A stretch of DNA of 30,595 bases from a virus. The notes under the pieces were generated by a model, which worked only from the letters and a program-made list of their open reading frames with translations, was not told the DNA's origin and did not search any database. This document shows, piece after piece, positions 742 to 29,905 of the stretch (position 1 is the stretch's first letter; every line of letters starts with the position of its first letter). The translations under genes and the position numbers were made by a program. The stretch is from IMG/VR virus record IMGVR_UViG_3300025671_000326, positions 1-30,595 of that record, one strand, 5' to 3'.

Positions 742-1194
742 TTATTTATTTCTTTCCAGATGTATATATGCTCCATCATTCCAATCTCCATCCCATGGGT
801 CAGGAAACAAATTTTTAGGAATTATAGTTTCCACACTTGAAATAGGTTCTTCAGATCCTCGATCAACAACTTCATTTTTAATCCTAAGAGTTGGAAGGTG
901 AGGAACTTCAGAAGGTTCAATCTCTACTGTAGTATTTCTTTTGATGGAGTGCTCATTGTCCCACAATTCATGTAAATCTTCTATCTGATTATCAACATCA
1001 GACATAGTTTGTTTTAGTTTACCCTCCCAATACCACATTTCTACATAAGAAAATAAGTGCATAAAAATAATATTAAGAGGTGGTTTTCTCTTGGATATCC
1101 ACCTCTTAATTTTTTGTATGGTAGTTTCCTTCTCTTTGTCGAAAACTACCTCAAATTCATAACTGAAATCCTGAAAAGGTATCTTTTTTGACAT
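742..1194 (-). CDS. Conserved hypothetical protein downstream of nrdB
   Basis: I do not recognise this 150-aa protein. It has a basic N-terminal third (KIKRWISKRKPP), one short hydrophobic, aromatic stretch (LNIIFMHLFSYVEMWYW) that may touch a membrane, and an acidic tail with a Trp-Asp cluster (DPWDGDWNDGAY). The ATG at 1194 is preferred; longer reading would need TTG or GTG upstream. It overlaps the end of nrdB by 38 bases, which suggests translation from the same message. The codon pattern and long overlap support a real gene, but its function cannot be stated. Confidence 0.6.
   Translation of the reverse strand: MSKKIPFQDFSYEFEVVFDKEKETTIQKIKRWISKRKPPLNIIFMHLFSYVEMWYWEGKLKQTMSDVDNQIEDLHELWDNEHSIKRNTTVEIEPSEVPHLPTLRIKNEVVDRGSEEPISSVETIIPKNLFPDPWDGDWNDGAYIHLERNK
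743..750 (-). promoter_or_regulatory. T4-type late promoter, AATAAATA
   Basis: The minus-strand octamer matches TATAAATA at 7 of 8 positions and lies 21 bases before the GTG of the GIY-YIG-like gene. It overlaps the stop codon of the upstream hypothetical gene. Confidence 0.45.
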
Positions 1195-2350
1195 CTTGCT
1201 TAATACCACCAACTACATAACTTTCAACTTCAGTCTCTTGTGGTGCAACCTGTAATCCTTTGGAAGAGATCCAGTGTTGTGTCCAAGGAAGTGGATTGTT
1301 CTTAGCAGAAATATCATATACTGGTTTAAGACCAATGGCCTTCAACCTACGATTAGCTGTCCACTCAACATATTGTTGAAGAAGTTTGTCATTTAAGCCA
1401 ATCATACTTCCATCTTTGAAGAGATAGTCTGCCCATCTCTTCTCTTCATTTACAGCACGATCAAACATCTTATAAGTCCACTCTTCCTCTTCTTTCATGA
1501 TCTGTTTCATTTCAGGATCATCACCAGATTTCCACTTATTCAAAATATTTTGAGTGATTGCTAAGTGTTGGTTTTCGTCTCTGGCGATAAGAGAGATGAT
1601 TTTAGCTGATCCTTCCATAAGCTTAAGTTCACCGAAGGCGAAACTACAAGCAAAACTAACGTAGAACCTAATACCTTCAAGAATGTTAACGTTGGCGACT
1701 GCCCTGTATAATTTTCGTTTGACATCTTTTAATGATTGTTGTGCGTGTGTAACATCTTCTAAACGATGAATCCAATCATTACCACTTGAATAATTTTGAG
1801 CTGTTTGAATAAAATTGTCATAGGATTCTGTAACACTACTAGCGCGTTCCAGAATTCTCTCATCAGTAATAATAGTATCAAACACTTGAGATGGGTCTGC
1901 ATAGACGTTCTTGATAATATATGTGTAAGAACGACTATGGATCATTTCCATGAATCCCCACACTTCCATACATGCTTCTAACTCGGGTAGACTGCAATAA
2001 GGTATAAAAGCCATCCCAGGACCACGCCCTTGTATGGAGTCAAGCATAATCTGATATTTGAGGTTACTTGTATAGATATGCTTTTGTTCAGGACGAAGTG
2101 TCTGATAATCTCCACGGTCTTTCTGTAGTGAAACTTCTTCAGGTCTCCAAAAGTATCCAAGTTGTTGACTAGTTAATTTATCAAAAACAGGATACTTGTA
2201 AGAGTCATATCTCTGAATTCCTAATGGTCTACCAAAAAACATTGGTTGTTTTTTGACATCATAAGAATCAGAGTTAAATACCGTCATTCCTTTTACACTG
2301 GTATTTTTACTATCATCAAATGACGGAACCTTAAATTGAACAGCTGTCAC
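1157..2350 (-). CDS. nrdB: Ribonucleotide reductase class Ia, small (beta) subunit
   Basis: NrdB carries the diiron-tyrosyl radical that starts reduction of ribonucleotides to deoxyribonucleotides in the NrdA partner. Visible ligands are D104 (LDSIQGR), E135 and H138 in EMIHSRSY, the radical Tyr at 142, a later Glu in FGELKLMEGSAK, and the E and H of RDENQH. Length is 397 aa, close to T4 NrdB. The start is a GTG at 2350 with a perfect AGGAGG six bases upstream, although similarity to T4 NrdB begins only at the internal Met22 (2287). The gene overlaps the end of nrdA by 20 bases, so the two subunits are translationally linked. Confidence 0.95.
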   Translation of the reverse strand: MTAVQFKVPSFDDSKNTSVKGMTVFNSDSYDVKKQPMFFGRPLGIQRYDSYKYPVFDKLTSQQLGYFWRPEEVSLQKDRGDYQTLRPEQKHIYTSNLKYQIMLDSIQGRGPGMAFIPYCSLPELEACMEVWGFMEMIHSRSYTYIIKNVYADPSQVFDTIITDERILERASSVTESYDNFIQTAQNYSSGNDWIHRLEDVTHAQQSLKDVKRKLYRAVANVNILEGIRFYVSFACSFAFGELKLMEGSAKIISLIARDENQHLAITQNILNKWKSGDDPEMKQIMKEEEEWTYKMFDRAVNEEKRWADYLFKDGSMIGLNDKLLQQYVEWTANRRLKAIGLKPVYDISAKNNPLPWTQHWISSKGLQVAPQETEVESYVVGGIKQDVKKDTFSGFQL

Positions 2351-3425
2351 AAGCTTCCTCCTCTGTGTTACTTAATTCCTCTAGTAGGTTTTGTAAATCT
2401 GACTTCTCTTCAACAATTTCATCAGTCTTGATATCGTAAGTATTCTGATAGTAAGAAGTCTTCCACCCGTACTTATATGTAGTCAAAAAATCATTTGCCA
2501 TCTGTGAAACTGGAACTTCATTATCTGGATAATTTTCTGGATTATAACTCCAGTTACCACTGATAGCCTGATCAAAGAACTTCTGCATCACGGCAACAAT
2601 ATTGATGTAACCTTTATTACTTTGCATTTCCCACAACAAAGTGTAATTATTCTTCAGTGTCGAATACTGTGGAACAATCTGCTTAAGAGGTCCTTTCTTC
2701 GACTTTTTAATGGACAGGTAGTCTCTAGGTGGTTCGATTCCGTTGGTTGCATTTGACACAACGGAACTGCTCTCCGATGGCATCTGTGCCGACAATGTTG
2801 AGTGCCTGAGACCGTAAGTGGTGATAGATGTTCTAAGACCTTCCCAATCATGTTTCAAATCCTGTGAACAGAGTTCGTCTACATCTTTTTTATATGTATC
2901 GATGGGAAGAATACCATCAGAATACTTGGTTCTACCAAAGTATTCACAATGACCTTTTTCCTTAGCAATTTGGTTAGAGGATTTCAAGAGGTAATATTGG
3001 AAAGACTCAGAAAGTCCGTGAACAGCATCCCACGCCTCTTGAGAATCATAATTATATCCCAGTTTGGCCAAGTAATGTGCTAAACCAATAAAACCTACTC
3101 CAAGAGACCTACGAGCCTTTGTGGCAAGTTCTGCAGACTTTACAGGATACTCCTGATAGTCGATGAGTTCTTCAAGACTACGAACGGAAAGATCACAGAG
3201 ATCTTCCAGTTCTTCATCAGACTTAACCTTACCAACATTAATAGCAGAAAGAATACAAAGTGCAATCTCTCCATACTCATCATCAATATGTTGAAGGGGT
3301 TTAGTTGGAAGTGTAATCTCTTGGCAATTATGAACTAGAATATCATTTGCGAAGAAATTATGAGTTCCTTCTACAGTAATATCATATACTGGGATTTCTT
3401 CTTCGAGATATTCAATCTTTAGCAT
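2331..3425 (-). CDS. nrdA: NrdA C-terminal half with C-terminal split-intein segment
   Basis: This 364-aa protein starts with a 33-residue C-intein and continues as the C-terminal 331 residues of class Ia ribonucleotide reductase alpha. The intein part shows block F (VYDITVEGTHNFFAND) and block G, ending in His32-Asn33 before Cys34 as the +1 residue. The extein part begins CQEITLP and includes LCILSA (second active-site Cys), SESSSVVSNATNGIEPPR, the radical-transfer Tyr pair in YYQNT and a C-terminal redox pair CDSC. Cys34 aligns with the thiyl-radical Cys439 of E. coli NrdA. The ATG at 3425 overlaps the endonuclease stop and has AGGAG six bases upstream. It should be joined by trans-splicing to the product of 4154-5830. 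Confidence 0.93.
   Translation of the reverse strand: MLKIEYLEEEIPVYDITVEGTHNFFANDILVHNCQEITLPTKPLQHIDDEYGEIALCILSAINVGKVKSDEELEDLCDLSVRSLEELIDYQEYPVKSAELATKARRSLGVGFIGLAHYLAKLGYNYDSQEAWDAVHGLSESFQYYLLKSSNQIAKEKGHCEYFGRTKYSDGILPIDTYKKDVDELCSQDLKHDWEGLRTSITTYGLRHSTLSAQMPSESSSVVSNATNGIEPPRDYLSIKKSKKGPLKQIVPQYSTLKNNYTLLWEMQSNKGYINIVAVMQKFFDQAISGNWSYNPENYPDNEVPVSQMANDFLTTYKYGWKTSYYQNTYDIKTDEIVEEKSDLQNLLEELSNTEEEACDSCSI
2357..2362 (-). promoter_or_regulatory. Shine-Dalgarno site fixing the nrdB GTG start
   Basis: AGGAGG on the minus strand lies 6 bases before GTG at 2350, inside the last codons of nrdA. The alternative ATG at 2287 has only a GGA directly against the start codon, so GTG is the better supported choice. 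Confidence 0.7.
3307..3320 (-). repeat. nrdA extein copy of a 14-nt repeat next to the intein insertion site
   Basis: GAGATTACACTTCC here encodes part of EITLP just downstream of the splice junction at codon 3324-3326. The identical 14 bases recur at 4098-4111 in front of the GIY-YIG gene, and most of them recur inverted at 4135-4148. Confidence 0.85.
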
Positions 3426-4093
3426 TTTTTTCTCCTGTTTTGTTCTAAAAGTTGCTTAGCAAGTTTTCTCTGTGTTTCATCTCTATAATAAGGATTATAC
3501 ACTAATCCAGTTTGTTCTTCAATACATTTATAAAAGTTTTGATGCTTTCCCCCAAATCTATTTTTGGAAAAATGTTTTGGAAATTTTATATTTAATTCGT
3601 TAAGAGCAAAATCAACTATTCTTTTTCTGCCACCAATAAATCCATACTTTTTAGCAAATTTTATTCCTATTTTTATAAGTTGTTCATCAGTGAGTCCAGA
3701 ATAATTTGGATTATTATAACCAGTAGTTCTTATAGAAATACCAGTTTTCCATTCTTCCTGAACCTCCTGTGAGCATCTGGGAAGCATCCAACCACCAGTT
3801 CCACCTGAAGTAGCATTATATCCCCTTTTAGTATCACTTTCAAAAAGTTTGATAAAGTGCGATTCTTTTTCATTGATAAAATTTTCATCTTCAGTCTGAT
3901 AGTTTTCAATCACTGATAAGTCCCAACAATCTTCACCATATTTTCTAATCGCAGAATGAAATCTAAATTTAGAACCATTTCTTGCTGATGATAAATGACG
4001 ATTCCAACGATGCTCTAAAGAGTATTCAGTTTTTCCTATGTAAGATTTTCCGTTTTTCTTATTGGTAATTTTATACACAATATATGATCTCAT
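3419..4093 (-). CDS. GIY-YIG homing endonuclease lodged between the nrdA split-intein halves
   Basis: This 224-aa free-standing protein has a GIY-YIG catalytic domain at the N-terminus: YIVYKI at residues 4-9, SYIGKTE at 17-23, a catalytic-type Arg in SLEHRWNRH and a Glu in NEKESHFIKLF. It continues with a Gly-rich block (RGYNATSGGTGGW) and a basic C-terminal region (GLTDEQLIKIGIKFAKKYG, GGRKR) fitting a DNA-binding arm. It probably cuts nrdA alleles that lack the insertion and so spreads the intein and itself. It lies exactly between the two halves of nrdA and overlaps the C-intein start by 7 bases. A hairpin with an embedded late promoter controls its start. It is a paralogue of the plus-strand gene at 29327. 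Confidence 0.9.
   Translation of the reverse strand: MRSYIVYKITNKKNGKSYIGKTEYSLEHRWNRHLSSARNGSKFRFHSAIRKYGEDCWDLSVIENYQTEDENFINEKESHFIKLFESDTKRGYNATSGGTGGWMLPRCSQEVQEEWKTGISIRTTGYNNPNYSGLTDEQLIKIGIKFAKKYGFIGGRKRIVDFALNELNIKFPKHFSKNRFGGKHQNFYKCIEEQTGLVYNPYYRDETQRKLAKQLLEQNRRKKC
3432..3436 (-). promoter_or_regulatory. Shine-Dalgarno site for the C-intein half of nrdA
   Basis: AGGAG lies six bases before the ATG at 3425 and inside the endonuclease gene. It shows that the second half of NrdA is translated independently and is not made by readthrough. Confidence 0.65.
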
Positions 4094-4097
4094 AATA

Positions 4098-4111
4098 GGA
4101 AGTGTAATCTC
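4098..4111 (-). repeat. Promoter-side copy of the nrdA junction sequence, possible operator
   Basis: GAGATTACACTTCC is identical to nrdA codons beside the intein insertion site (3307-3320). It covers the predicted late start point of the endonuclease gene, where a homing endonuclease recognising that sequence could bind and repress itself. Confidence 0.6.
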
Positions 4112-4116
4112 ATAAC

Positions 4117-4124
4117 TATTTATA
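4117..4124 (-). promoter_or_regulatory. T4-type late promoter, exact TATAAATA, inside the hairpin loop
   Basis: Exact match to the T4 late promoter octamer on the minus strand. Transcription would start about 4110, leaving only the downstream arm of the hairpin on the endonuclease message. Confidence 0.7.
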
Positions 4125-4153
4125 AAATATAGACATTACACTTCCTATAATAA

Positions 4154-5830
4154 TCAAATAATATTTAGAATGTCAGTTTCTTTAAGATGTTTTGCTATCA
4201 CATATCCACGATTTTTTGTATAAACTTTATGATCTGGAGTAACAACAACACTCTTACCACTTTCTTCATCAGTAATTTTCATTACTTTTGCTTTTGGTGA
4301 TGTTTGAGCAAATGCAGTTATTTGATGATAATCAATTTCTTGATTACCAGTGTCAATATCACGAGAAAGAACTTCTATGCAATCCAAAGGCAAACCTTCT
4401 TCAATAAATTCTTGAAGTTGTTGAATTTCAATTTCAAGGGGAGGAAGACGATATGTGCTTGTTGTATTGCCAACAACTTCTTTAGTAGTAGTAATTCTTA
4501 CTTTAATCTTTGTATTACCAGCAACACATAAGTTGCTCATCTCAACCTTATCCTTAAAGGAGGAGTGAGAGTTACAATGATCGATATTCATGATATAAAT
4601 TCGACCTGTTTCTGCTCTTTCTTTCAGAAGGTCCAGAATGAGTTCTTGAGCTCCGATAGTCTTTCTCGGAATAGAGTCATCTCGTTCAAAACCCACATAC
4701 AACTCATCAAATCGATCAGTACCAAAAGCATCATACAAACCAGGAACGTCGTGTGGAGAGAAGAGTGAGACTTCTCCATTTTGGATGAAACGTTCATAGA
4801 AGAGTTTACTGATTTGAATACTATAATCTAGTTTACGAACTCGGTTGTCCTCTGTACCTTTGTTGTTCTTAAGAACAAGAATGTCCTCTATTTCTTTGTG
4901 CCAGATAGGAAAGTGAACTGTAGCAGAACCACCTCTGATGCCGTTCTGTGTACAGCATCGGACAGTTGCTTCAAACTTTTTAAGGAAGGGGACAACGCCT
5001 GTATGTTGTACCTCGCCACCTCGTATTTTGCTGTTGATACCACGGATTCTGCCAGCGTTAATGCCGATACCAGCCCTCTGTGCGACGTATCTGCCAATAG
5101 CCATATCACTGCTAAAGATACTATCGAGGGAGTCATCAACATCAACGAGAACACAAGATGCAAATTGACGAAGGGGTGTTCTGACCCCTGCCATGATTGG
5201 TGTTGGGATGTTGAGTTTGTGTTTGGAGATTGCGTCATAATACCTCTTAACGTAAGAAAGTCTTGTCTCCTTAGGATACTCTTGGAAAATAGTCAGAGCA
5301 ATCATGATGTACATGAACTGAGGAGTTTCGTAAACCTCCCCAGTGCTCCTATCCTGCACTAAGTATTTATCGGATACCTGCCGTAATCCCGCATATGTAA
5401 ACAAGTAGTCACGATCATGATCAATAAAAGTTTCTACCTTTTGAATTTCTTCCAAAGAATACTTGGAAAATATTTCCTTATCATAAATGTGATCATAACA
5501 AAGTTTTTGAATATGATCAACAAGTGAAGGATGATCTCTCATAACACCATAAAGTTGTTTTCTTAGAGAAAACAAGAGAAGTCGAGCAGCAACATATTGA
5601 TAATTTGGATGTTCCAGATCAATCAGATCACTCGCACTCTTAATCAGGATCTCCTGAATTTCTTTCGTGGTAATTCCATCATAAAACTGAATACCAGAAG
5701 TCATCTCCACTTGACTTGCAGAGACCCCTGCAAGACCCCTACAAGCCTCTGCAACCATCAGGTGCATCTTATCCAGGTCAAGAGACTCAATATTACCATT
5801 TCTCTTAACAACTTTTGTACCGTTAGTCAT
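4154..5830 (-). CDS. nrdA: NrdA N-terminal half with N-terminal split-intein segment
   Basis: This 558-aa protein is the first 434 residues of ribonucleotide reductase alpha followed by a 124-residue N-intein. The reductase part has an ATP-cone region (KVVKRNGNIE), TPIMAGVRTP, the active-site Cys of ASCVLVD (E. coli C225 position) and ends MSNL, whose Asn aligns with N437. The intein starts at Cys435 (codon 4526-4528; CVAGNTKIKV, block A) and has block B with Thr-Pro-Asp-His (VTPDHKVYT). It has no endonuclease domain and stops after block B, as in naturally split inteins. ATG at 5830 overlaps the primase stop (ATGA). The joined protein would be 765 residues, near the T4 length. Confidence 0.93.
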   Translation of the reverse strand: MTNGTKVVKRNGNIESLDLDKMHLMVAEACRGLAGVSASQVEMTSGIQFYDGITTKEIQEILIKSASDLIDLEHPNYQYVAARLLLFSLRKQLYGVMRDHPSLVDHIQKLCYDHIYDKEIFSKYSLEEIQKVETFIDHDRDYLFTYAGLRQVSDKYLVQDRSTGEVYETPQFMYIMIALTIFQEYPKETRLSYVKRYYDAISKHKLNIPTPIMAGVRTPLRQFASCVLVDVDDSLDSIFSSDMAIGRYVAQRAGIGINAGRIRGINSKIRGGEVQHTGVVPFLKKFEATVRCCTQNGIRGGSATVHFPIWHKEIEDILVLKNNKGTEDNRVRKLDYSIQISKLFYERFIQNGEVSLFSPHDVPGLYDAFGTDRFDELYVGFERDDSIPRKTIGAQELILDLLKERAETGRIYIMNIDHCNSHSSFKDKVEMSNLCVAGNTKIKVRITTTKEVVGNTTSTYRLPPLEIEIQQLQEFIEEGLPLDCIEVLSRDIDTGNQEIDYHQITAFAQTSPKAKVMKITDEESGKSVVVTPDHKVYTKNRGYVIAKHLKETDILNII

Positions 5831-6819
5831 ACCTTTTTCCAAATAGTAAATTTTAGTTTTGCTTCCAATCCTTTGTAAGTATTCAATTTTACCAAATTTT
5901 GAACATTATGTCCACCCAAGATCATATCATTAATGTCTTTTTGATTTATGTTTGATGGCCAGATGACGACACTTTCTCCCCGTTCAATACACTGTTCAAT
6001 TCGATTAACAATTTCTTTATTACGGGGTTCGTTATCATATACAAAAACTTTGTCGCTTCCTTCAAGATCACTAACTTGACCGTCACTACCACACAAAGCC
6101 ACACTATTAGGGAGGAAAGTGCTGTCAAAGGGGCCTTCAACGATATAGACGGGAAGTTCTTTATCAACTCGATCAATCCCATAGATTTTTGGTTCATCTT
6201 CATCCAACATGATGGTTAAGTATTTAACAGGGTTAGAAGATAGTGCTCTTCCCTGAACTCCGATAAGTTTCCTATTTCTAATAAGTGGAATTACAATTCT
6301 TTCTTCACCATACTTGGTAGAATCAAATGTTCCTGGTTTAATAGAATTAACAAACTCTTTAAAATTTTTTACATAATAAAATTCACCATCAAAAATTGCT
6401 CTTGATTCCAAATACCTTTTAGATACATCTACATCAAAAGCTTTTGGTAGTTCAATTTTCACTTTTGTTGTGAAAGTTGGTTTTGAGGTTTTAACTTGTT
6501 CAAAAATACTTTCTGGTGTTTCAGTCACAAAGTTTTTTCCGGTATGTCCTTCTTTAAACTTCTCAAAAATATATTGTTTATGAATTTCAGTATCTAGATC
6601 TTTAAGAAAGGAATTGAAAGAAATACTGATACCACAATTGTGGCACTTATAATTACTATTATTCTTTACCCTATAAAGAAAACCTCTTGATTTATTTTTA
6701 TTCTTTTTAGAATCTCCACAAATAGGGCATCGAAAATTATAAAGATATGGTTTAATCTTTTTGAATTTTGAAAGTCTTGAGGAAATCAAATTGATGTACT
6801 TTACATCAATATAATCCAT
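5827..6819 (-). CDS. 61: DNA primase (T4 gp61-like)
   Basis: This 330-aa protein would make RNA primers for lagging-strand synthesis together with helicase gp41. A four-Cys zinc ribbon is formed by C31, C34, C59 and C62 (CPICGDS, CHNCG). The TOPRIM catalytic region shows E228 in VYIVEGPFDS and D262 in VFVYDNEP. Length is close to T4 gp61. The gene overlaps nrdA by 4 bases, so primase and the nucleotide-supply gene share a message. It follows the late-type block with one base between genes, so how it is switched on early is not clear from the local sequence. Confidence 0.92.
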   Translation of the reverse strand: MDYIDVKYINLISSRLSKFKKIKPYLYNFRCPICGDSKKNKNKSRGFLYRVKNNSNYKCHNCGISISFNSFLKDLDTEIHKQYIFEKFKEGHTGKNFVTETPESIFEQVKTSKPTFTTKVKIELPKAFDVDVSKRYLESRAIFDGEFYYVKNFKEFVNSIKPGTFDSTKYGEERIVIPLIRNRKLIGVQGRALSSNPVKYLTIMLDEDEPKIYGIDRVDKELPVYIVEGPFDSTFLPNSVALCGSDGQVSDLEGSDKVFVYDNEPRNKEIVNRIEQCIERGESVVIWPSNINQKDINDMILGGHNVQNLVKLNTYKGLEAKLKFTIWKKV

Positions 6820-6820
6820 A

Positions 6821-7219
6821 TTAACTAAGACGACTACCAGTTAGTATAGGAGTTAGATTGTAAGATGTCAAGATTTTTTTTAAATTATTATTATTTTGAT
6901 AAAATGGACTGTTTAGTAAAAATGATAAAGCAGTGGCACAACCTATCATTATCCAAACCTTTTTCTCTAATCTCTGTATTCTTGCAAGCACACAGTTATG
7001 ATTGATGTCCATTTTATCACGGAGTTTGTCAACCTTTGAAAATAATACAACGTCAACTTCTTCCTGTTTTGATATTCTTTCTTCATGAATGGCAAGCATT
7101 CTACTCACACTAGTATTTACCTCACTCAACTTCTCAATAGCAGTATCAATCCTAATAATGATAGGTTTTAAATCTTCTATTTTTTGTTCTAATACGGCTA
7201 TCTTAACTTGATTTTCCAT
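6821..7219 (-). CDS. Small coiled-coil protein with one membrane segment
   Basis: I cannot name this 132-aa protein. Residues 1-90 form a long charged, heptad-like helix region (LEQKIEDLKPIIIRIDTAI, LARIQRLEKKV), followed by one hydrophobic segment (VWIMIGCATALSFLL) and a polar tail rich in Asn and Thr. The arrangement, coiled coil followed by a single membrane span, resembles XhlA-type lysis accessory proteins, but that is topology only. It overlaps the preceding 103-aa gene by 17 bases and ends one base before primase. Confidence 0.6.
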   Translation of the reverse strand: MENQVKIAVLEQKIEDLKPIIIRIDTAIEKLSEVNTSVSRMLAIHEERISKQEEVDVVLFSKVDKLRDKMDINHNCVLARIQRLEKKVWIMIGCATALSFLLNSPFYQNNNNLKKILTSYNLTPILTGSRLS

Positions 7220-14692: not shown

Positions 14693-14764
14693 TGGAGTGT
14701 AAGGAAATCGAATCCTTATTGCTGGAATGCAAATCCAGAGTAATAACCGTTATACGAACACCCC
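14693..14764 (-). tRNA. tRNA-Ala (anticodon TGC)
   Basis: A 72-nt cloverleaf reads on the minus strand. The acceptor GGGGTGT pairs with ACACTCC and includes G3:U70, the alanine identity pair, with discriminator A. The D arm is GTAT/TTAC (three good pairs) with GG in the loop. The anticodon stem CTGGA/TCCAG encloses TTTGCAT, giving UGC. The T arm AAGGA/TCCTT encloses TTCGATT. CCA is not encoded. It reads GCA and other GCN codons, common in AT-rich phage genes. It has its own sigma70-like promoter and sits inside the late block. Confidence 0.88.
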
Positions 14765-21076: not shown

Positions 21077-22076
21077 AACTAAACTCCTCTCTCGCAATTT
21101 GATCCAGTTTCTCCATCACTTCTGGTGTGAAATATTGTTCTGGATCTTTCATAATAGCCTTGGCGTAAATTTTCTTTCCGTCTCCAAGATCATATCGTCC
21201 GGCAACATTTTTCCACATCCCACCGAGTTCACCAAGTTCCAAGAGACCATAATATTTGTCAAGTCCTCGTTCATCATAGAAAAGACGAATAGTAACCTCT
21301 TTATTCTCCTTACTTAAACGTGACTTAGCAGTCTTTGCCTTGATAAGATTTCCAATAACTTCCGTTCCATCTTTCTCCTTTTTCTTAGACAAATAGATAA
21401 TTGTAGACGCAGCATATTTGAGACCACTACCTCCACCCATTTCTTTCGTAGGAACATAAGAACCGATAACATCATAGGTATGATTGGTTACAATCATTGG
21501 AATGTTTGCCTGACCCAACTTCAGAGTTAACATCCTAAAAGCACCTTTGACTAGTTGAGATTTAGTCATGTCACGAACTTGTTTGTCATTCAGTGCGTCA
21601 GTAATTTCTTTCTCTGTAGAGAGCATCCCTAAAGAGTCTAACACAAACATACAAGGTTTACGTTCATCTTCAGGTTTTTTTAAGTATATATCTACAGCCT
21701 TGAGTGCTTTACTACGAAACTCTTCAATCGTCACAACGTTGACAACAACAACTCGATTCAAATCAACACCACGATTTTCTAGGAGTGACTTATTGACAGC
21801 TGCCTCAGTATCAAAATACAAGCAATATCCATCAGGATTAGAGTCCAGAAAATTCTTAACCACTGCGAGGCTAAAAAAAGTTTTTCCAGTACTAGACTCA
21901 CCAGCAATGGCAGTAATCTTATTCCCAGATACACCGCCAAATATACTACCTGAAACAAGTCCGTTAAAAATGTACGAACCTGTGTCCACATAAGTTTCGG
22001 TTTCGTCAATATCTGATGCAAGTTTTGTGTAGTCATCGCCTATTTCTTTTACGATATCTTGTAAAAAGTCCATCAT
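21060..22076 (-). CDS. uvsX: RecA-like recombinase UvsX
   Basis: UvsX forms filaments on single-stranded DNA and drives strand exchange in recombination-dependent replication; it would also serve homing repair of endonuclease cuts. Visible are Walker A AGESSTGKTF (residues 58-67), Walker B PCMFVLDSLGM, and GGGSGLKYAASTIIYLSKK, typical of the core. Length is 338 aa, somewhat shorter than T4 UvsX. ATG at 22076 overlaps the stop of the polymerase C-half gene (ATGA). Confidence 0.94.
   Translation of the reverse strand: MMDFLQDIVKEIGDDYTKLASDIDETETYVDTGSYIFNGLVSGSIFGGVSGNKITAIAGESSTGKTFFSLAVVKNFLDSNPDGYCLYFDTEAAVNKSLLENRGVDLNRVVVVNVVTIEEFRSKALKAVDIYLKKPEDERKPCMFVLDSLGMLSTEKEITDALNDKQVRDMTKSQLVKGAFRMLTLKLGQANIPMIVTNHTYDVIGSYVPTKEMGGGSGLKYAASTIIYLSKKKEKDGTEVIGNLIKAKTAKSRLSKENKEVTIRLFYDERGLDKYYGLLELGELGGMWKNVAGRYDLGDGKKIYAKAIMKDPEQYFTPEVMEKLDQIAREEFSYGSGV
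21084..21088 (-). promoter_or_regulatory. Shine-Dalgarno site fixing the oxygenase start
   Basis: AGGAG lies 7 bases before the ATG at 21076, inside the end of uvsX. Confidence 0.6.
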
Positions 22077-23251
22077 CCAAAAAATAATTCTAAGTTTACA
22101 GTTTTTTCAACGTTCCACCCAATAGAATCAAGAATAGTCTTGACTGGTTCTAAGAATGCCTTTTCAAATTGTAGTTCGTAATCAATGTATTTGTCAAGAC
22201 CAGTTTCAACAGGAAAGTCTGAGATGAAAGAAATCACATTCTCTCTGATAGGGTTAGCTTTTTTCAGGTAAACAAACTTAATCTTTTCACCATTGTTGAT
22301 GAAAGAATATTTGTTTTGAAGATTCTTTTCTCTAATATAATGATTGAAAAGAAGAGCACCTCTAGCATGAATCGGTGTTCCTTTTATATAAATTGAAGAG
22401 TGAGACTTATACTTATTTACATCAGAAACCATTCGAGGAAATGCAATTTCTTCCGGAGAAAGGTTTTTGAATTTTGTTCTACAATTTTCAATAAAATCAA
22501 TCAAATCATCTTCAGTCGCTTTCATCATAAGTTTGAGAGCGTCTTTAATCATTGACCTACATGGAGCTGGAGTAGAAGACTTTACAGCTTCTATACCCAT
22601 AATCTTAAGTTTAGGATCTTCATATCTAACTCCCTCACTATCCCAAACATTAAGAATGTATCGTTTCTTTGCTGTCCAGATTCCACGGTCTGCAATGTTC
22701 TCCCGTTTCATCTGCATCTTCTGATCATATGCATTTACATACGACGCAAGATTTTGATAAGAGGAATCGATGAACGGTTCCAACTTGTCCTTACAGATCT
22801 GGTCAATGATCGTAACAATCTTATTCTTATCGTCAAGCTTATTACGAAAAAATTTATTAACAAGAGGTCCAAAATTAAGATAGATTGAATCAGTGTCAGA
22901 TGCAATGACATAATCAATCCCCTCCGTTTGTAATAGATTATTTAGATAACCATTCATACGGTTTTCAATCCACCGAATAGATACCTGACCACTCAGTGTG
23001 ATAGCTTCTGCATTTGCAAGTTTGTAATATCTGAAGTACTGATTACCAACGGCACCATAAGCTGAGTTCAGTGTAATCTTTCTAACCATTTGAAAGTTAT
23101 TGAACTTTGCAATATCTTTCACAGTCTGATCACGAAGTTTCAGAAGTTGTGTATCAGTCAATTTAGAATAGTCCTTATCTGATACCACTATCTCCTTTTG
23201 TGCACCTTCTCCTGCACCTCCGATTAAATACCCAATAACAACCTCCGGCAC
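22073..23251 (-). CDS. 43: DNA polymerase gp43, C-terminal half
   Basis: This 392-aa protein is the fingers, remaining palm and thumb of a family B polymerase: motif B KITLNSAYGAVGN (58-70), motif C SDTDSIYL (118-125), KKRYILN and a C-terminal LELFFG that fits the sliding-clamp peptide. The catalytic Asp of motif A lies in the other half (23792-25255), so both must associate, as in the split gp43A/B of some Aeromonas T4-like phages. The only plausible upstream start is GTG at 23251, with GAGAG upstream; the frame is closed by the HNH stop at 23270. Confidence 0.9.
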   Translation of the reverse strand: MPEVVIGYLIGGAGEGAQKEIVVSDKDYSKLTDTQLLKLRDQTVKDIAKFNNFQMVRKITLNSAYGAVGNQYFRYYKLANAEAITLSGQVSIRWIENRMNGYLNNLLQTEGIDYVIASDTDSIYLNFGPLVNKFFRNKLDDKNKIVTIIDQICKDKLEPFIDSSYQNLASYVNAYDQKMQMKRENIADRGIWTAKKRYILNVWDSEGVRYEDPKLKIMGIEAVKSSTPAPCRSMIKDALKLMMKATEDDLIDFIENCRTKFKNLSPEEIAFPRMVSDVNKYKSHSSIYIKGTPIHARGALLFNHYIREKNLQNKYSFINNGEKIKFVYLKKANPIRENVISFISDFPVETGLDKYIDYELQFEKAFLEPVKTILDSIGWNVEKTVNLELFFG

Positions 23252-23268
23252 ACAGCATCTCTCATTAA

Positions 23269-23291
23269 ATTATACCACATTTTTCTTATTA
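23269..23291 (-). promoter_or_regulatory. Possible sigma70 extended -10 promoter for the gp43 C-half
   Basis: TGTGGTATAAT (TATAAT at 23269-23274 with an upstream TGG) overlaps the HNH stop. A weak -35 (TTCATT) lies 17 bases further up. Initiation near 23262 would leave only about ten bases before GTG 23251. Confidence 0.35.
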
Positions 23292-23737
23292 AATGAAGGA
23301 CGATTATTGTTCTGTGTTACATAATCCGCCCACACAACATTCTCCGGACAATAATCACCACTACTATCCAATCTTTCAAGTGTCATACCTTCTGGTGGTT
23401 CACCCATATCCTCATAAAAGTTTATAAAGGTTCTCCACCTATCACAAACTTTTATACCTTTTGCCCCATACTTATGATAACCAACACTATTGGGGTTATG
23501 GCATCTCATTACCATAGAGTTCCACCTACCATAAAGTTTTGTTTTAGTATGTTGATGGTTTCTTTCTTTTCTAGCACAACCACAGGATATAGTTGTTCCA
23601 TTTTTTAACTTCTCCCTCCTTACAGATTTCTCATTTCCACAGGAACATTCACACAACCAATATGTGCGTCTCCCTCTCCTTTCAACAGAAAGAGCAGTAA
23701 GCCTACCAAATGTTTGTCCGGTCAAATCTTCTAACAT
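23270..23737 (-). CDS. HNH homing endonuclease splitting gene 43
   Basis: This 155-aa protein has an N-terminal beta region (LTGQTFGRLTAL), a Cys-rich zinc-binding part (CECSCGN, SCGCARK), then LYGRWNSMVMRCHNPN, KYGAKGIKVCDRW and GMTLERLDSSGDYCPENVVWAD. That is the usual order of phage HNH/AP2-type homing endonucleases, in which the last block supplies the HNH metal site (this copy has LERLD where others have LDRID). It lies exactly between two halves of DNA polymerase gp43, in frame with the downstream half but closed by a TAA. It should cut uninterrupted gene 43. A hairpin and an exact late promoter lie upstream. Confidence 0.87.
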   Translation of the reverse strand: MLEDLTGQTFGRLTALSVERRGRRTYWLCECSCGNEKSVRREKLKNGTTISCGCARKERNHQHTKTKLYGRWNSMVMRCHNPNSVGYHKYGAKGIKVCDRWRTFINFYEDMGEPPEGMTLERLDSSGDYCPENVVWADYVTQNNNRPSFNKKNVV

Positions 23738-23742
23738 AATAC

Positions 23743-23785
23743 CCCCAATAAAGTATTATTTATATTATATGATATTTTATAGGGG
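23743..23785 (-). promoter_or_regulatory. Inverted repeat that would cover the HNH ribosome site
   Basis: CCCCTATAAA (23776-23785) pairs with TTTATTGGGG (23743-23752) with one mismatch. The downstream arm contains the G-rich ribosome-site-like run four bases before ATG 23737, and the late promoter lies in the loop. Confidence 0.55.
23757..23764 (-). promoter_or_regulatory. T4-type late promoter, exact TATAAATA, for the HNH gene
   Basis: The octamer lies 19 bases before ATG 23737, in the loop of the inverted repeat at 23743-23785. Confidence 0.7.
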
Positions 23786-23791
23786 AGGTGT

Positions 23792-25255
23792 TTACTTAAG
23801 ACCCCTTCTCTTCATCTCCGATTCAATATCAACTAGTTTCTGTTTACTCTTCAACATCTCCTTCTTAAAGGCCTTACGTTCAGCATACATCTTCTCCATC
23901 AATTCAGGTAGAAATCCCCTTTCATCCTTTCTATACATTGCACCATTAGCACAAACCGCATAGTCCTTATACATCTCAAATGTAACTTCTTCATTAAGAA
24001 GTTTATCCACACTCACACTTGGATGTTTCTCATCCAAAAGTGTTTCTGGTGAGATATTGTATTGCATGATTAAGTGAGGATATAGGGAGTTAAGGTCAAA
24101 AGAAACCACATAATCATAAAGACCTGGTTTAGGTTCTTTGACATAAGCTCCAGCAAACTTAGAATCTTTCTCACTTCTATCCTTTGGGGGAACTACAATT
24201 TTCTTCTTTTTCAAATAATTGTAGATAATGGTATCCCACAATCTAACCTGAAACATCACATCAGTGTAGTTGACTTTACCATCATATGCCATTGTGATAG
24301 CAAGTTCAATCAATCTCAACTTGTCTTCCAGTCGATCAACAAGTTCCACGTCAATAATGTTGTAATCTACAAACTTCTTCCAGTTCCCGTTATAGAAGTC
24401 TTTGAAAGTATCAAACTCGGAGTGATCCAACTTCTTCTGACCGAGTTCAATATTAGCAATATAGTCTAGTCGATAACTCTCTTGATTTGTATAAGTAAAC
24501 TTCTTATACAACTCCAGGTAATCTAGAGTAGTTGTGCCAGCAATATCATAAACATTAAACTTTCTACCCGAGATATAGATCTCTTCATGACTTACCAGTC
24601 CCCATGGTGAAAGAAGTTTAAGTTTCTTCTGTCCCATAATTCTGTCAATACGGCCACAAAGATATGGAATATCATAAAGACGACAATTCCAACCAGTCAC
24701 AACCTCAGGGGGATTTTTATTCCAATGATAGATGAAAGAATTAAGCATATCAACTTCATCATCATAATGATAATAAGTTACATTATCCTGAGTAGGAGTA
24801 TAAGGTTTTCTTCCCCAGGTCTTAATTTTTTTAGTGGCATAATCCTGCATGGAGATAGTGAGCATCTCCTCTGAACAAGAATCCGGATCAGGAAATCCTT
24901 GTTCAGATTTGACCTCAATATCAATGGTCACAAGATTGATTTTTTTAATATCAAACTTGATCTCATTTTCAGGATACTTATCAGAAATGTATTGGTAGAT
25001 GTACCTTTCATTACCATAGATTTTGAATCCATCTACATCTTCATACTTCTTATAAAACTCCCTACAATCCTTCACTGTACCTGGTTGAATAGGTTCTACA
25101 TTCTCACCATCAAGAGTTTTCCATCCAGTTTCTTTATTTGATTTCACATAAAGAGTTGGTTGAAATTCCTCTTTGAAGATGACGCTTTTCCCATTTTCAT
25201 ATCCACGGACCAAAAAGTTGTTACCAACCATCTGGACATTCGTATAATAACGCAT
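23792..25255 (-). CDS. 43: DNA polymerase gp43, N-terminal half
   Basis: This 487-aa protein carries the N-terminal domain, the 3'-5' exonuclease and the first part of the palm. Exo I is TIDIEV with D112 and E114 (the same numbers as T4 gp43), Exo II is TGWNCRLYDIPYL (D195) and Exo III is YNIIDVELV. Motif A reads SFDLNSLYPHLI (D387). The protein ends just after the helix KSKQKLVDIESEMKRRG, before motif B, so it cannot polymerise alone. Together with 22073-23251 it makes 879 residues, close to T4 gp43 (898). There are no intein motifs at the break. Confidence 0.92.
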   Translation of the reverse strand: MRYYTNVQMVGNNFLVRGYENGKSVIFKEEFQPTLYVKSNKETGWKTLDGENVEPIQPGTVKDCREFYKKYEDVDGFKIYGNERYIYQYISDKYPENEIKFDIKKINLVTIDIEVKSEQGFPDPDSCSEEMLTISMQDYATKKIKTWGRKPYTPTQDNVTYYHYDDEVDMLNSFIYHWNKNPPEVVTGWNCRLYDIPYLCGRIDRIMGQKKLKLLSPWGLVSHEEIYISGRKFNVYDIAGTTTLDYLELYKKFTYTNQESYRLDYIANIELGQKKLDHSEFDTFKDFYNGNWKKFVDYNIIDVELVDRLEDKLRLIELAITMAYDGKVNYTDVMFQVRLWDTIIYNYLKKKKIVVPPKDRSEKDSKFAGAYVKEPKPGLYDYVVSFDLNSLYPHLIMQYNISPETLLDEKHPSVSVDKLLNEEVTFEMYKDYAVCANGAMYRKDERGFLPELMEKMYAERKAFKKEMLKSKQKLVDIESEMKRRGLK

Positions 25256-29326: not shown

Positions 29327-29905
29327 ATGATTATATACAAAATAACCAATGAAATCAATGGTAATTTTTATATTGGAAAAACTACAAAAACTATTGAAGA
29401 GAGGTTTAGAAATCATCTCTACGAGTCATCATACAAAAGAAGTAACACTCCCTTATACAAGGCAATTAGGAAATATGGGAAAAATAATTTTACCATAAAA
29501 ATTGTAGAATGTGAAGTTCCCGTATTAGAACTTGATGATAGAGAAAAGTATTGGATTGAAAAACTACAACCTCATTACAATCTAACTAAAGGTGGAGAGG
29601 GAGGAGATACATCAAACTCCCCAAACTTTATTCAATCAATGAAAGAATATCATAAAAGAAAACCAAGAGAAGAATATGCAACATATGGAATGTTGGGGAA
29701 AACTCAACCTAAATCATCAAGAGAAAAAGTTTCAAAGGCCAACTCGTATCCAGTAGTATGTGAAGGAAAAGAGTTTCAATCAATAAAAAAAGCAGAAGAA
29801 TACTACAGAGCCTTAGGAACACCAAAATCTGTAAGGAAAAGAATTGATAGTCCCAAACATAAAGATTGGTATAGAATTAGACCTAAAAGAGTTATACACA
29901 GATAA
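29327..29905 (+). CDS. GIY-YIG homing endonuclease, plus strand
   Basis: This 192-aa protein has MIIYKITNEINGNFYIGKTT (GIY-YIG core), Arg in TIEERFRNHL, RKYGKNNFTIKIVE, the Glu in DREKYWIEKLQPHYN and a C-terminal DNA-binding region with a helix-type repeat (GKEFQSIKKAEEYYRALG, like intron-encoded nuclease repeats). It is a paralogue of the nrdA-associated enzyme. It is the only plus-strand gene, lies between the AbrB-like gene (convergent, 4 bases apart) and gp44 (divergent), and probably targets one of these in related phages. Confidence 0.88.
   Translation: MIIYKITNEINGNFYIGKTTKTIEERFRNHLYESSYKRSNTPLYKAIRKYGKNNFTIKIVECEVPVLELDDREKYWIEKLQPHYNLTKGGEGGDTSNSPNFIQSMKEYHKRKPREEYATYGMLGKTQPKSSREKVSKANSYPVVCEGKEFQSIKKAEEYYRALGTPKSVRKRIDSPKHKDWYRIRPKRVIHR

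Follow-up and report, generated by a model that had tools for sequence, protein, structure and literature searches.

We analysed a 30,595-nucleotide stretch of DNA from a T4-like cyanophage, called the window below in its entirety, and found on its minus strand a ribonucleotide reductase (RNR) gene, nrdA, lying as two ORFs that each carry half an intein at the break. The N-half ORF (4154-5830, 558 aa) consists of a 434-aa N-extein (4529..5830) ending in MSNL, followed by a 124-aa N-intein and its stop (4154..4528), whose Cys1 is the TGT codon at 4526-4528 and whose block B reads TPDH. The C-half ORF (2331-3425, 364 aa) opens with a 33-aa C-intein (3327..3425) ending in His-Asn and continues into a 331-aa C-extein and stop (2331..3326), the first residue of which is the +1 Cys (TGC, 3324-3326). 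Between the halves, on the same strand, lies an intact 224-aa GIY-YIG homing endonuclease ORF (3419-4093). Its final codons overlap the start codon of the C-half, and its 3' end contains AGGAG (3432..3436), the likely ribosome-binding site of the C-half; an SD-like core precedes the C-half in all 61 de-duplicated split loci described below. The minus-strand ORF directly downstream of nrdA (1157..2350) we take to be nrdB, from its position. The first-pass annotation had placed both nrdA ORFs, the MSNL end, the Cys1 codon, the His-Asn terminus and the +1 Cys codon exactly where we find them.

A ribonucleotide reductase broken at its catalytic cysteine

Joined, the exteins would give a 765-aa product (434 + 331) with the junction NLCQEI. 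Residues 5-736 of the 765 aligned with E. coli NrdA (phmmer, E = 6e-279), and the ATP cone, the all-alpha and barrel domains and the radical cysteine are those of a class Ia RNR alpha subunit. Product residue 435 aligned with residue 458 of the E. coli NrdA chain in 8vhp; as the 8vhp numbering runs 19 ahead of that of untagged 2r1r, residue 435 corresponds to E. coli Cys439. The E. coli alignment thus upholds the first-pass proposal that the +1 Cys is Cys439 and that Asn437 and Glu441 (E. coli numbering) are encoded on opposite halves. The Pfam profile of the RNR barrel domain is likewise divided: the N-half matches its positions 1-213 and the C-half its positions 210-522. These results support the view that neither half would hold a whole active site.

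The intein halves have the residues of a class 1 intein, namely Cys1, TxxH, a penultimate His, a terminal Asn and a +1 Cys. Hits to the Pfam intein-splicing model were obtained on each half, at E = 1.2e-4 and 3e-7, with scores under the gathering threshold. Among de-duplicated split relatives, SNLC was kept in all 48 loci that held the junction, TPxH in 48/48 and HN-Cys in 61/61, so the motifs are not chance resemblances. Alignment with contiguous homologues showed that block B precedes the break and block F follows it, which is the usual location of a homing endonuclease domain within an intein. One contiguous homologue (L090) was predicted to fold as a HINT domain (pLDDT 90.8), with the NrdJ-1 split intein as its nearest solved structure, and the break mapped to a loop at about residues 125-132 of that model. 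Of the solved structures, NrdJ-1 (8ubs) and gp41-1 (6qaz) are among those closest in sequence and fold; they share the HINT fold and motifs, although they come from other host genes and are only 32% and 26% identical, respectively, in structural alignment.

Judged from its sequence, then, nrdA is fractured by a class 1 split intein inside the RNR active site. The pN/pS of the C-intein (0.05) and the invariance of the catalytic residues strongly suggest that the reductase depends on trans-splicing. An intact nrdA elsewhere in the genome, which the first-pass annotation had named as an observation that would speak against this, did not appear in the DNA at hand: the window, a 30.6-kb genome fragment, held no second nrdA N-half, and 14 longer records with the split gene, which reach 132.8 kb but are not known to be whole genomes, gave a single match per half in every case.

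The endonuclease gene and its upstream hairpin

The product of the intervening ORF matched the GIY-YIG domain (PF01541, E = 7e-12). Its best solved relatives by sequence were structures of the I-TevI catalytic domain (4e-5), which was also the best fold match (1.7e-3) of a predicted model of modest confidence (pLDDT 71), so the C-terminal part was left uninterpreted. The gene has a pN/pS of 0.26. It is free-standing between the halves, and a C-intein followed it in 278/278 testable loci, that is, those of the 295 fetched GIY loci with at least 250 nt downstream (the window and repeated contigs counted). In one divergent lineage (L218, L311, L314), the GIY-YIG frame stops early while nrdA remains split. 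The protein had no match at 60% identity or above among 50,697 cultured phage records, and no cellular relatives were found among 47 pattern matches in one scan of genome contigs. A structured RNA or intron in the gap was considered and rejected, as Rfam at gathering thresholds returned only a tRNA in the window.

A hairpin (4092..4151, minus strand; arms 4132-4151 and 4092-4111; z = -5.2) lies between the N-intein stop and the GIY-YIG gene, whose start codon it abuts. In its loop lies the octamer TATAAATA (4117..4124, minus strand), which we take to be a T4-type late promoter. Seven copies of the octamer occur in the window, where 2.5 would be expected, and every one of them is on the minus strand. 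Hairpin statistics were computed on all 42 distinct fetched sequences, 39 of which kept TATAAATA; the other three carry GATAAATA, CATAAATA and TATAACTA. Standard pairs occupied 96.2% of pair cells, compared with 39-48% when the arms were slid. Both sides had changed at three pairs (0.5 expected; reached by 1/500 shuffles), and the covariation score was equalled by 0/500 shuffles. Slid controls reached up to three doubly changed pairs (three observed) and up to five such cells (four observed). Since the controls match or exceed the double changes, support for pairing comes from the shuffles and from three measures on which the slid controls fell short of the true pairing: the percentage paired, the pair types and the covariation score. 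A smaller set, 26 of 39 distinct hairpins, had given no covariation beyond shuffles. Bases of the outer stem were altered with pairing retained in L243, L200 and L314, while the arm core was nearly invariant. The 3' arm contains no Shine-Dalgarno sequence, and a leader mini-ORF within the hairpin was discarded, being visible by eye in some loci only. The hairpin would silence the GIY-YIG gene, and the octamer would provide for its late expression.

The 3' arm, GAGATTACACTTCCTAT (4095..4111, minus strand), is also a candidate operator, as it resembles the presumptive target site: it matches 15/17 bases of extein DNA at +6 to +22 from the insertion point (3304..3320, minus strand), exactly over 14 nt in the window. 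Position +6 was unbeaten by any other of about 4,558 nrdA positions in 59/65 intein-less alleles and ranked first in 28/37 split hosts but in only 1/9 contiguous-intein hosts, where the match is poor; the alleles counted are related and not independent. When all 1186 17-mers of the cassette were ranked by best matches within 40 nt of the insertion point, the top 12 all overlapped the hairpin arms. Ranked by mean score, arm 17-mers came 3rd, 4th and 6th overall, and two unrelated cassette stretches did at least as well by this measure at other places in nrdA, far from the site. The arm 17-mer with up to three mismatches occurred four times in the window (0.15 expected): in the two arms, at +6 and, more weakly, at 3253-3269. 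The arm adjoins the octamer and does not cover it. Support for reading the arm as a putative operator resembling the homing site is moderate, since stretches unrelated to it score no worse, or higher, at other places.

CNNNG, the motif that I-TevI prefers to cleave, spanned the insertion point in 54/65 intein-less alleles and in 0/61 split and 0/15 contiguous right junctions. It was noticed post hoc and is largely due to the Leu-Cys codons, so we offer it as a prediction and not as evidence.

Three states of one insertion site

Relatives were collected from IMG/VR with the GIY-YIG protein (best 80 of 117 relatives), two divergent GIY members (best 80 each, which returned the same kind of locus), nrdA (best 80 of the matches listed) and a contiguous intein (best 80 of 207). 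In the part of this collection used for the tally, the classifiable loci comprised 134 split, 66 intein-less, 19 contiguous and one unclear (61, 65, 15 and one after de-duplication); these counts depend on the queries and are not natural frequencies, and loci cut short were left unclassified. The closest nrdA genes from phage records, among the matches listed, were those of Synechococcus phages (up to 87%). Ten of the contiguous-intein loci fetched have a second break some 13 codons further along, where tails stand instead of intein blocks; Rfam at gathering thresholds gave no match in four loci with this second break. One further locus, L174, looks as though the endonuclease was lost.

Contiguous and split forms were intermixed in an intein tree of 64 rows (48 split, 15 contiguous and Yersinia phage TG1), and the split label changed at least seven times on well-supported branches, although such a tree is also distorted by recombination within the intein. 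Two phages have N-inteins about 97% identical, one belonging to a contiguous and the other to a split intein, and the likeness drops near the split point: contiguous L088 and split L209 agreed at 357/360 bases in the first six 60-base blocks and at 24/33 in the last 33 aligned bases, at the break.

Spread of the 1.2-kb unit

We compared the unit formed by the split intein and the GIY-YIG gene across 48 de-duplicated split loci, drawn from 111 with both junctions. Twenty-one pairs had units of equal length at 97% identity or above, some of them, such as L040/L046, simply closely related loci whose exteins are also alike. In other pairs the unit was far more alike than its surroundings. The window and L003 shared 1202/1202 bases of the unit with exteins 86% (N) and 73% (C) identical; the corresponding values were 99.1%, 73% and 70% for L020/L028, 99.0%, 84% and 82% for L034/L039, and 100%, 80% and 95% for L053/L056. 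In these four pairs, unbroken identity continued past the unit for 24-36 nt on the N-extein side and for 5-41 nt on the C-extein side. The unit of the window is present in L003 and L004, in contigs of two differently numbered metagenomes; this argues against an assembly chimera.

Divergence at four-fold sites was 0.27 for the GIY gene, 0.32 for the C-intein and 0.32 for the aligned part of the N-intein, compared with 0.51 and 0.49 for the exteins. Synonymous divergence of the GIY gene lay below that of both exteins in 606/618 pairs, these being the pairs with diverged N-exteins among the 630 from 36 full loci, and not independent of one another. The modules within the unit also vary separately. 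Pairwise identities of the N-intein and GIY gene were uncorrelated (Spearman -0.02, 630 pairs), as were those of the N-intein and N-extein (-0.02); the GIY gene and N-extein gave 0.21, and the two exteins 0.57. In 160 pairs the N-inteins were below 60% identical, yet the GIY genes were above 90%. Mean amino-acid identity over the compared pairs was 0.98 for the C-intein and 0.62 for the N-intein. At the level of sequence comparison, these data demonstrate horizontal spread of the block of about 1.2 kb, split intein and GIY-YIG gene together, as a unit. Because the break point and the hairpin are common to the loci, a single insertion followed by recombination between modules would explain the pattern better than many insertions.

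Comparison with known systems

A 2009 survey by Dassa et al. (NAR 37:2560) reportedly described fractured genes with split inteins, mainly from phages, in which a stand-alone endonuclease gene separates the halves. A Vsr-like endonuclease is said to occur in about half of them, and the abstract is said to mention control elements brought in with the endonuclease. The layout of the broken enzyme gene is the same in our locus, which differs in having a GIY-YIG gene and a late-promoter hairpin.

That fractured genes with split inteins are known, as the first-pass annotation had remarked, is correct, and RNR genes of this kind are in print. PMC3653736 credits the 2009 survey with seven nrdA and two nrdJ fractured cases in ocean metagenomes, and in PMC7090010 the NrdA-2 split intein, a metagenomic member of that set found in NrdA, is used in a splicing library. 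The nearest parallel is AceL NrdHF, a fractured RNR gene with a putative GIY-YIG homing endonuclease between its pieces and a break at the usual endonuclease position (PMC7891396); it is a beta-subunit gene with a class 3 intein, whereas here a class 1 intein interrupts the alpha subunit at the catalytic cysteine.

For control of the endonuclease, the closest likeness is to I-TevI of the T4 td intron, whose operator, according to PMC2988022, resembles the homing site at 15/20 bases and overlaps the late promoter. Shared features are the GIY-YIG catalytic domain and a late promoter (putative here) with a hairpin, and the candidate operator would be a further likeness. I-TevI, by contrast, resides in a group I intron, and its hairpin hides a ribosome-binding site. 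That site is absent from the arm here, unlike in I-TevI and TG1, so silencing cannot be identical in detail. I-TevI-like control of the GIY-YIG gene is plausible, and we do not claim an identical mechanism.

A search of the N-intein against the 50,697 cultured phage records (E = 1e-5) gave matches in a single phage, Yersinia phage TG1, which is represented by two records. In the T4-like TG1 (KP202158.1) a homologous intein occupies the same cysteine position and has the same split point; between its halves lies an unrelated gene annotated as HNH, which had no Pfam match at 0.01 and is a homing endonuclease by PHROG. A hairpin around TATAAATA (z = -3.6) precedes that gene too; its sequence is unrelated, and GGAG lies within its stem, in contrast to the window's 3' arm. 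The TG1 record annotates both halves merely as reductase, and our literature search found no publication on the TG1 nrdA split.

Discussion

Taken together, the evidence makes it very probable that this nrdA is a fractured gene whose trans-splicing class 1 split intein forms a mobile unit with a GIY-YIG gene under its own control region. The first-pass annotation had recognised the split intein at the catalytic cysteine and that no half has the whole active site, and sequence and conservation bear this out; it was incomplete in missing the GIY-YIG gene, its control region and the mobility of the 1.2-kb unit. The two polypeptides would associate through the split intein and trans-splice into the 765-aa class Ia RNR, the +1 residue becoming its thiyl-radical cysteine. 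The intein and the GIY-YIG gene between its halves would spread as one mobile unit of about 1.2 kb: the endonuclease would cut a co-infecting phage's intein-less nrdA where the unit inserts, and repair would copy the unit across. The hairpin would silence the endonuclease gene on long early and middle transcripts, and the late promoter in its loop would yield transcripts without the 5' arm. A possible operator resembling the homing site would act as in I-TevI. Trans-splicing, DNA cutting, late expression, silencing and self-repression are activities that we infer for this unit.

The halves might instead assemble non-covalently, with the intein pieces as remnants. PMC3653736 describes a working two-piece enzyme, NrdA-a/NrdA-b of Aeromonas phage Aeh1, that functions without a self-splicing intron, while a figure legend there mentions an intein for the Aeh1 case; the ten contiguous-intein loci with a second break, where tails replace intein blocks, point the same way. 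Pieces of the Aeh1 type, however, have no splicing element at the break, whereas complete intein halves are present here, the checked splicing residues are invariant in split loci, the C-intein is under strong purifying selection, unlike a remnant, and the break falls inside the SNLC active-site motif. We consider this account highly improbable. Slightly less probable still is an immobile, degenerate locus in which the endonuclease gene would be a dead passenger and common phage descent would account for the likeness between units. The early stops in L218, L311 and L314, where the gene is still split, fit such decay, but the GIY pN/pS, unit identity far above extein identity in several pairs, and the weak correlation of GIY with N-extein identity relative to that between the exteins all oppose it.

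Much closer to even, though falling a little short of it, are the chances that the hairpin is an RNA element only, a silencer or processing site, with a coincidental likeness to the extein and no operator. Unrelated cassette 17-mers match nrdA equally well or better by chance, and L243, L200 and L314 keep their pairing despite changes in the outer stem. An RNA element alone would leave unexplained why the arm likeness is located just at the insertion point and why the arm core is nearly invariant while the outer bases vary.

It is conceivable, if rather unlikely, that the endonuclease gene, hairpin and C-intein form a module that can be exchanged and that converts resident contiguous inteins to the split form. 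The fracture would then persist because the endonuclease is thereby released from the early nrdA message: it would gain a late promoter to itself and repress itself through a copy of the homing site. The GIY-YIG gene and the unrelated HNH gene of TG1 would each have reached the same design in the same intein.

Fractured RNR genes with split inteins are already known, including one with a GIY-YIG gene in another RNR gene (PMC7891396). To these our analysis seems to add an allelic series, transfers of the whole unit, exchange of modules and a hairpin whose arm is target-like. Split inteins are widely used tools, and their origin is debated. As one site is found across many related phages in three states, intein-less, contiguous, and split with an endonuclease, the step between contiguous and split forms becomes directly testable. 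The loci also add natural N- and C-intein halves, which may be interchangeable.

Variation among nrdA loci

In the split intein of nrdA, the pN/pS ratio was 0.60 for the N-intein as against 0.05 for the C-intein, and within the N-intein (4154-4528 in the window) the first half, judged by eye, was far more variable across loci than the second. Three of the fetched loci (L218, L311 and L314) form a divergent lineage in which the GIY-YIG frame carries an early stop while nrdA is still split; the promoter sequence in this lineage is TATAACTA. The nrdA of Yersinia phage TG1 (KP202158.1; L162) also contains a split intein, on which its annotation is silent, and the locus holds a gene annotated as HNH together with a hairpin surrounding TATAAATA, the octamer that we read as a T4-type late promoter. 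At a further locus, L023, the C-extein is additionally interrupted close to residue 186 (5322-6891), and the end of this interruption matches the C-intein at 39%. It is perhaps a second intein within that same gene.

Other features of the window

Gene 43, encoding DNA polymerase, is in two pieces too (22073-25255). The pieces occupy 23792-25255 and 22073-23251, and between them lies an HNH-type ORF of 155 aa (23270-23737), ahead of which TATAAATA occurs at 23757-23764. Pfam gave no intein match in either gene 43 half, and the spacer contained no stable hairpin. A GIY-YIG gene of the SegE family (254-721; Pfam SegE, 1.4e-54) lies 3' of the nrdB-like ORF and on the same strand as that ORF. Another GIY-YIG ORF (29327-29905) is on the plus strand, opposite to the long minus-strand ORFs surrounding it, and a tRNA gene is present on the minus strand at 14693-14764.

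A second break in nrdA

In ten loci with a contiguous intein (L164, L165, L088, L167-L170, L172, L175 and L178), nrdA is broken a second time, approximately 13 codons further on (at 3681-4499 in L164). The insert measures about 1.0 kb in seven of these loci and 2.0 kb in the other three; that of L164 holds a different, homing-endonuclease-like ORF of 254 aa. All ten close the first part of the gene with a similar tail, KVKV/RVKV..KDK..YKKY..TGG(V/I)LYDH. These loci resemble the genes in pieces of Aeromonas phage Aeh1, NrdA-a and NrdA-b, which are reported to function without splicing, and the tails at the second break may possibly serve as docking tails.
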